Assembly (NCBI GenBank): GCA_003345595.1
Contig: PRDI01000129.1
Coordinates: 1 to 64,000 of the forward strand
Origin: Candidatus Thorarchaeota archaeon
GTDB lineage: Archaea; Asgardarchaeota; Thorarchaeia; Thorarchaeales; Thorarchaeaceae
Direction: 5' to 3'
DNA: 64,000 nucleotides
The position numbers and the translations under genes are program-made. The notes beneath the pieces are model-generated. The model did not search any database. It was given only the letters and a program-made list of their open reading frames with translations, and was not told the origin of the DNA. Below are positions 56,005-57,264 of the stretch, piece after piece. Each line of letters opens with the position of its first letter. The stretch's first letter is position 1.

Positions 56005-56376
56005 TCAGAGTCGGCCGATGAGTTTGAGCGCGGTCCTGGAAACGTCAATGGCGGCTAGCTCGGGAACAGAATCGGCAGTAGCCCACGCCATCAACCATGT
56101 CTTCCCCTCAACTAGCGCCATGAGAAAGTGCCCATTGTTCTGTGACGTCGCTACATAAGACCCGGGACTAGACGCAATCCTGCTGTACTTCACACCATTG
56201 GCAAGGATAGAGGCTGCAGCGGTTTCGGCCGCAGTCGTGAGCTCACGTCCATCCTCAACCAGTGACCAGTTGCTCGTCTGCCACAATATGGTACCGTCTC
56301 TGCACACTGCAAACGCCTGAATCTTTGGGTTGTTCTGGAACAGGTTCTTCCACTCTTCATCAATGACCGTTGACAT
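56005..56376 (-). CDS. profilin/roadblock-like protein, paralog B
   Basis: 123 aa; 'IQAFAVCRDGTILWQTSNWSLVEDGRELTTAAETAAASILANGVKYSRIASSPGSYVATSQNNGHFLMALVEGKTWLMAWATAD'. Clear paralog of the next ORF; profilin-like assignment by eye. Confidence 0.5.
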   Translation of the reverse strand: MSTVIDEEWKNLFQNNPKIQAFAVCRDGTILWQTSNWSLVEDGRELTTAAETAAASILANGVKYSRIASSPGSYVATSQNNGHFLMALVEGKTWLMAWATADSVPELAAIDVSRTALKLIGRL

Positions 56377-56430
56377 GGGTGAGGCCGCCTAAGAGCTAGC
56401 CAGTCAGACGTAACGCCGCCTGCCGCTCAA

Positions 56431-56823
56431 TCACGCTCGAATCTTACCCTTCAGGAACTTCGCCGAGCGGTCTACGTCGACGTATATCCCGTCAGGAGTA
56501 GCACTTGCGTTCGCCCAAGCAACGACCCACTTATCGCCTTCAATCCTGACGAGCACAAGAGTGCCGTTGCCTGCGGCACTTCGCGCAACAAGACTGTCAG
56601 GGTTCGATCTCATGGTGCTGTACTTTACTTGGTTCTGGATCACGCTCGCCGCCTTCTGGGCCACAGCCGAAACGAGAGCCTTAGCATCCTTAGACAGGTC
56701 CCAGTTGTTGGTCTGCCAGAGGACCTGTCCATTAGCATTGACCACACCAAAGGCCTGAATCATGTGTCCTGAGTCATTATAGGCCCGGGTGTAAGCTTCC
56801 ATCACGACTTGATTGTATGACAC
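56431..56823 (-). CDS. profilin/roadblock-like protein, paralog A
   Basis: 130 aa; 'IQAFGVVNANGQVLWQTNNWDLSKDAKALVSAVAQKAASVIQNQVKYSTMRSNPDSLVARSAAGNGTLVLVRIEGDKWVVAWANASATPDGIYVDVDRSAKFLKGKI'. Confidence 0.5.
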   Translation of the reverse strand: MSYNQVVMEAYTRAYNDSGHMIQAFGVVNANGQVLWQTNNWDLSKDAKALVSAVAQKAASVIQNQVKYSTMRSNPDSLVARSAAGNGTLVLVRIEGDKWVVAWANASATPDGIYVDVDRSAKFLKGKIRA

Positions 56824-56952
56824 TCTGCATTCACCCCGTTGGACTCTGTGTTCTGTGAAGCAGTTAGCAGGATACCTGATTTAAGATAATCTTGATGGTC
56901 CTCCACAGAGCCTTGGAGCATGCTCTTATGCAGGGACATACACGCCCTCATT

Positions 56953-57264
56953 GTGACTGACAAGGCAATCTGGGAAACGAGTGAGGGCATCATGATTAGA
57001 GTGCTTGTCAAGCCCAGAAGCAGAACGATTAGACTCATTGAAGAGATAAGCGAAGCAGGGGTGCTCGTTAACCTGAAAGAACCCGCGAGGGAGGGCAAGG
57101 CCAATTCTGAGCTTGTCAAACGGCTCGCAAAGGCGCTGAGTGTTTCGTCCAGTGATGTAGCCATCGTTGCTGGATACGGAACAAGAGAGAAAATTGTGCG
57201 TATTAGAGGGCAAAGTCAGGCAGAGGTGCAAGAGCTTCTTCTCAAGGCCACGAGGAGTCAATGA
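56953..57264 (+). CDS. DUF167/YggU family protein
   Basis: 'IMIRVLVKPRSRTIRLIEEISEAGVLVNLKEPAREGKANSELVKRLAKALSVSSSDVAIVAGYGTREKIVRI'; probable GTG start at 56953. Confidence 0.88.
   Translation: MTDKAIWETSEGIMIRVLVKPRSRTIRLIEEISEAGVLVNLKEPAREGKANSELVKRLAKALSVSSSDVAIVAGYGTREKIVRIRGQSQAEVQELLLKATRSQ

Follow-up and report, generated by a model that had tools for sequence, protein, structure and literature searches.

A tandem pair of predicted profilin genes in a probable operon conserved across the archaeal class Thorarchaeia

Profilin is one actin regulator common to Asgard archaea and eukaryotes. In Thorarchaeota, the described representative, thorProfilin, is reported to bind polyproline at 0.25–0.5 mM and to slow the elongation of rabbit actin (PMC8410842). 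Multiple profilin duplications have been mentioned in general terms (PMC8410842), and the genome of Ca. L. ossiferum contains three profilins (PMC9834061). The Asgard profilin family, thorProfilin, and the occurrence of several profilins in one genome are therefore already known. In the open literature searched, we found no report of a tandem pair, and a prior mention elsewhere is possible; the class-wide tandem pair of Thorarchaeia described here, with its divergent second member, is apparently undescribed.

The pair lies on the minus strand of the window (the whole stretch of DNA that was analyzed, 64,000 nucleotides of a Thorarchaeota contig), with gene A upstream and gene B downstream (Table 1). 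A reading made from the sequence alone had pointed out two adjacent paralogous ORFs, giving neither their strand nor their order. These ORFs are real, as judged by their mutual identity, their conservation throughout the class, and the purifying selection on both. The A and B proteins are 43% identical over 107 amino acids (E = 8e-29), which indicates that the motif common to both reflects homology rather than chance, and a protein search of the own genome with A matched this pair alone. The window A protein begins with VSYNQVVM (window positions 56800–56823), its GTG start lying two codons before the start position of its relatives, nearly all of which begin with M(S/A/G)DPVM. Taken jointly, the identity of A and B as profilins, their tandem pairing, and their organization as an operon have, in our estimate, a probability of about 80%.

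Table 1. Coordinates of the features at the profilin locus (window positions)
Feature	Position	Strand	Description
Gene B, divergent paralogous profilin (predicted)	56005..56376	-	123 aa; ATG start
A–B intergenic spacer	56377..56430	-	54 nt; class promoter copy not detected
Gene A, Thorarchaeial profilin (predicted), thorProfilin 7PBH ortholog	56431..56823	-	130 aa; GTG start; stop codon 56431-56433
Shine-Dalgarno-like GGTGA	56831..56835	-	12 nt upstream of the gene A GTG
BRE/TATA-like promoter element AAGATTATCTTAAAT	56878..56894	-	68 nt upstream of the class-conserved A start position
DUF167/YggU gene	56920..57264	+	divergent from gene A; PF02594 E = 2e-18

Sequence and predicted fold of the two proteins

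In phmmer searches, the gene A protein matched the Thorarchaeota profilin structure 7PBH with E = 9e-53, followed by the profilins of Odin (5ZZA), Loki (5ZZB and 5YED), and Heimdall (6YRR) archaea, and the gene B protein matched 7PBH with E = 1e-24 and 5ZZA with E = 4e-7. A profile of the B family likewise matched 7PBH (2e-29), 5ZZA (9e-13), 5ZZB (2e-11), and 5YED (1e-10). The Pfam Profilin model scored the window A protein at 20.3 bits, under the cut-off of 25, and had no match to the window B protein; at E ≤ 1, its matches comprised 30 of the 33 proteins in the A family and 5 of the 43 in the B family. A search of the own genome with the same model (PF00235) found nothing, probably owing to its tuning toward the eukaryotic members of the family; direct searches with proteins and alignments were successful. 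With B as the query, a search of genome contigs for related loci yielded no confirmed relatives.

The AlphaFold2 models of A and B had pLDDT values of 93.7 and 94.9, respectively, and in both the order of elements was profilin-like, with an N-terminal helix followed by two strands, a helix, five strands, and a C-terminal helix. When the models were compared with known structures using Foldseek, Asgard profilins ranked at the top for both, and eukaryotic profilins and roadblocks ranked lower. The best match of the A model was 7PBH (3.8e-13), followed by 5ZZA (2.8e-11), with 5ZZB and 5YED also found, and that of the B model was 5ZZA (8e-10; TM 0.86), followed by 7PBH, 5ZZB, and 5YED. The E values were 1e-9 to 1e-13 for Asgard profilins, whereas they were about 1e-4 to 1e-5 for roadblocks; the crystal and NMR structures of Asgard profilins gave TM values of 0.80–0.92 with an rmsd of approximately 2 Å, and the rmsd of roadblocks was at least 3.4 Å.

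An identity of A and B as small-GTPase regulators of the roadblock/LC7 (MglB-like) kind instead of profilins is extremely improbable: although the folds are similar, roadblocks appear further down the Foldseek lists, and Pfam Robl_LC7 had a single weak match to A only (E = 0.064, below the cut-off), profilins lead by many orders of magnitude in sequence, the predicted folds are closer to Asgard profilins, and the order of the secondary structure elements is that of profilin. The E values and the Foldseek ranking thus settle, within sequence and predicted structure, the choice that the sequence-only reading had left open: its profilin suggestion was borne out for both genes, and the roadblock alternative came lower in every test. 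We treat A and B as archaeal profilins on these grounds, and the roadblock/LC7 identity was discarded as a candidate on sequence and predicted fold ranking.

Distribution, expression signals, and history of the pair

The family was present in 44 of the 47 genomes of the window's class, and the three genomes with no match were 52%, 60%, and 85% complete. Among the class loci examined (L063–L107, with two pairs contributed by genome G033), A was followed by B on the same strand wherever the sequence ran on past A, with the exception of G031; in G041, the contig ends directly after A, and in G008, it stops within B. The A–B spacer is 54–105 nt long across the class (54 nt in the window and 67–105 nt in the others), and 187 nt in one case. 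Most loci also have the same neighborhood, with genes for DUF58, a membrane protein, an OPT transporter, and DUF167 on one side and HTH, methyltransferase, and ABC genes on the other; the DUF167 and OPT neighbors were found at 42 of the 44 other class loci. Profilins were widespread across 228 Asgard genomes, of which 185 had a match to the A profile, and the copy number was mostly one profilin per genome outside the window's class and a set of families to which we give the inferred label of Lokiarchaea-like.

Several individual genomes deserve mention. In G031, A and B are located on separate contigs (L091, G031:C218, and L092, G031:C34), and on each of them the conserved order breaks off precisely within the A–B spacer; the two overlap by approximately 21 bp. 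The DNA adjoining A contains a 1422-aa ORF with no Pfam match, and the DNA adjoining B contains a TnpB-like gene (PF07282, E = 5.6e-13; Cas12f1-like TNB), which suggests that the split was caused by the insertion of a mobile element; a misassembly is the possible alternative. In G033, two A–B pairs occur in one bin (L094, G033:C177, and L095, G033:C153), and one of them groups with genus g8, not g9, suggesting that the bin is contaminated. The genome of L170 (G207:C115) is filed in family f21, and its profilin is of the f14 type, unlike those of its f21 relatives; contamination or misplacement is possible. The own genome also encodes one actin-family protein (E = 1e-133; G000:C26:2064-3170) and several gelsolin-domain stretches (G000:C118:1063-1581, C123:16322-16525, and C64:18949-19110).

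A BRE/TATA-like consensus, AAGAATTTCTTTATAT, lies 48–69 nt upstream of the A start. With leave-one-out scoring at p ≤ 0.01, 35 of 42 genomes had this motif upstream of A, as against 1 of 42 with the motif in the A–B spacer. Of the 44 A genes, 36 have a GGTGA Shine-Dalgarno sequence 10–13 nt ahead of the start; for B, an SD-like site was present ahead of the gene in 38 of 44. Given a promoter element before A and almost none in the spacer, one two-gene message is the simplest reading, and A and B probably constitute a bicistronic operon with a single promoter. RNA stem-loops were predicted between the genes in some genomes, with z-scores from +0.6 to −3.0, and no RNA structure common to the A–B intergenic regions was seen.

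The position of the promoter also bears on the N-terminus of thorProfilin. When the 7PBH chain was compared with the DNA of G037 (L099:5543–5974), the profilin core was identical, and the chain had an extension of 18 residues, M(C/A)GYNLGTEWISLRSKLE, before MSDPVM, with one difference, C to A; the stretch MCGYNLGTEWISLR belongs to this extension. At L099, the conserved start has the TATA-like element 66 nt ahead of it, and the DNA separating the two encodes the extension. The ATG of the extension, 54 nt ahead of the conserved start, follows the TATA-like element by just a few bases, so it is probably located before the start of transcription. In 25 of the 44 A genes, an in-frame stop is found no more than 15 codons from the conserved start, and the distance from the element to the start is not kept in multiples of three. 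The location of the extension between promoter and conserved start, the upstream in-frame stops, and the absence of a three-nucleotide phase together indicate that the published 18-residue extension is probably an annotation artifact, a possibility raised by PMC8410842 itself. The published thorProfilin construct, on which the structure and the polyproline work are based, carries residues encoded upstream of the conserved start codon; if the extension is not made in cells, the conclusions that rest on it will need revision.

In a phylogenetic tree of 126 Asgard profilins, the A proteins, the B proteins, and A and B together each fell on one side of a branch with bootstrap values of 99–100 (100/100 for the A+B clade), and the several profilins of the Lokiarchaea-like families were placed in other clades. 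In three genomes of family f14 (L166, L167, and L168), a single profilin gene is arranged head-to-head with DUF167, exactly like A, which fits a single ancestral gene that later underwent tandem duplication on the class stem. A duplication on the stem lineage of Thorarchaeia is our preferred scenario, not a proven one: in the AU test, trees joining A or B with the f13/f14 profilins were not rejected (p = 0.14 and 0.15), so an older duplication followed by losses is also possible. The head-to-head pairing of DUF167/YggU and profilin in the class and f14 represents an old gene neighborhood. The suggestion in the sequence-only reading that a duplicated pair would bear on cytoskeleton evolution stands insofar as the pair is class-wide, but the duplication is apparently specific to Thorarchaeia and not shared with eukaryotes.

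Residue differences and a possible division of labor

We aligned A and B with 39 other Asgard profilins and three eukaryotic profilins and defined a column as pan-Asgard conserved when 65% or more of the other Asgards shared its residue, which gave 30 columns. The human residues that we take, from general knowledge, to contact actin were transferred to A and B via this distant alignment. Six of the 30 columns align to these contacts (K69, S71, E82, R88, N99, and N124), and A keeps five of the six and B only one, in a small sample that depends on a distant mapping. The single contact column retained in B is the GH histidine, one of the pan-Asgard residues that were kept in B and lost in A, and A has R72 at the position of human R74. 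Over the full set of 16 usable contact columns, the higher variability of B was suggestive at most and not significant (permutation p = 0.096). At the level of the alignment, B appears to have lost most pan-Asgard residues mapping to the actin face, which A appears to keep.

On the N-terminal helix, an aromatic pair is found in both families (invariant Y11/Y15 in A; invariant W9 with Y13 or F in B), and both have an invariant tryptophan in strand 2 at the position of human W31. The other Asgards sampled have mostly aliphatic residues on the N-terminal helix. In light of the reported polyproline binding of thorProfilin and its effect on actin elongation, we read the aromatic side of A and B as a putative shared ligand face.

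We propose that the locus is a two-gene profilin operon of an Asgard archaeon of the class Thorarchaeia, in which the product of gene A would bind and regulate actin monomers, as its solved and assayed ortholog thorProfilin suggests. Gene B, most likely a tandem duplicate from the class stem, would supply a second profilin-fold protein off the same message. The B protein keeps the core, the Thor-specific aromatics of the N-terminal helix, and the strand-2 tryptophan and lacks most of the conserved residues that the alignment places on the actin face. Such a protein could be a specialized accessory profilin that still reads a ligand-side signal, from a proline-rich or other partner; its binding of actin would be weak, different, or absent, and it would thereby tune A or serve another partner. 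From sequence, it is likely that A is the actin-binding profilin and B its specialized partner; the accessory-profilin reading of B's own partner and function, taken by itself, is a conjecture with the odds somewhat against it. The combined proposal, in which B is non-canonical on actin as the dedicated regulator in a division of labor unique to Thorarchaeia and the thorProfilin extension is not made, is tentative and, as a whole, unlikely. As a dedicated regulator, B may be a competitor for ligand, or a partner of A or of a different form of actin.

The main rival is functional equivalence of A and B, both being actin-binding profilins, with B as a second dose whose sequence is drifting. The two proteins have the same fold, both genes are under purifying selection, and B still has its core, the QT.NW motif, and the GH histidine of the pan-Asgard set. 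However, B lacks columns kept by A and the other Asgards (K, S, E, N, and Y), has gained a conserved set of its own (W9, L12, R66, L107, and D111), and takes the place of A in none of the genomes sampled, and we regard equivalence as a serious but rather unlikely explanation. An A–B heterodimer, or the inhibition of A by B through direct contact, would suit the fixed adjacency and likely co-transcription of the genes throughout the class, and dimers are common among roadblock-like folds, but profilins are usually monomers, and in G031 both genes are still intact despite their apparent split, which makes such a complex improbable.

B evolves approximately 3.3 times as fast as A, and the median dN/dS in 26 close pairs was about 0.05 for A and 0.10 for B. 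These medians argue that B is a gene maintained by purifying selection, not a relic. A decaying, functionless duplicate, with which the faster evolution and the frequent TTG starts of B would agree, is hardly credible considering this dN/dS, the intact B wherever the locus was sequenced through, and the ten invariant columns in B. That nearly all of the class's sampled species keep the pair in fixed tandem order suggests a need for two different profilins in this lineage, and A and B provide a matched pair for telling apart the surface used for actin and the one used for other ligands.

Comparison with known profilins

Among the known proteins, thorProfilin (PDB 7PBH; TFG12995.1) is 68% identical to A in the Foldseek alignment and has the same predicted fold, and its core is found unchanged in G037 (L099), a member of the same class. 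The A family differs from it in starting with M(S/A/G)DPVM, without the 18-residue extension of 7PBH, and B shows 38% identity to 7PBH and has an actin face that appears altered. The Odin and Loki profilins (5ZZA, 5ZZB, and 5YED/5YEE) share the fold, and their homology to A and B is detectable in sequence, at approximately 20–30% identity; the aromatic pairs of A (Y11/Y15) and B (W9/Y13) lack conservation among the other Asgards sampled. The roadblock/LC7 proteins (MglB; Asgard 7F8M and 9JUE) have an overall related alpha/beta fold but are clearly farther from A and B in both sequence and structure. In the eukaryotic profilins (human PFN1, yeast, and Acanthamoeba), which are 10–19% identical to A and B, the human polyproline-site residues W3, Y6, H133, and Y139 are not conserved at the aligned A and B positions, whereas the strand-2 tryptophan (human W31) is shared with both, as is the fold (Foldseek E between about 1e-4 and 5e-6).
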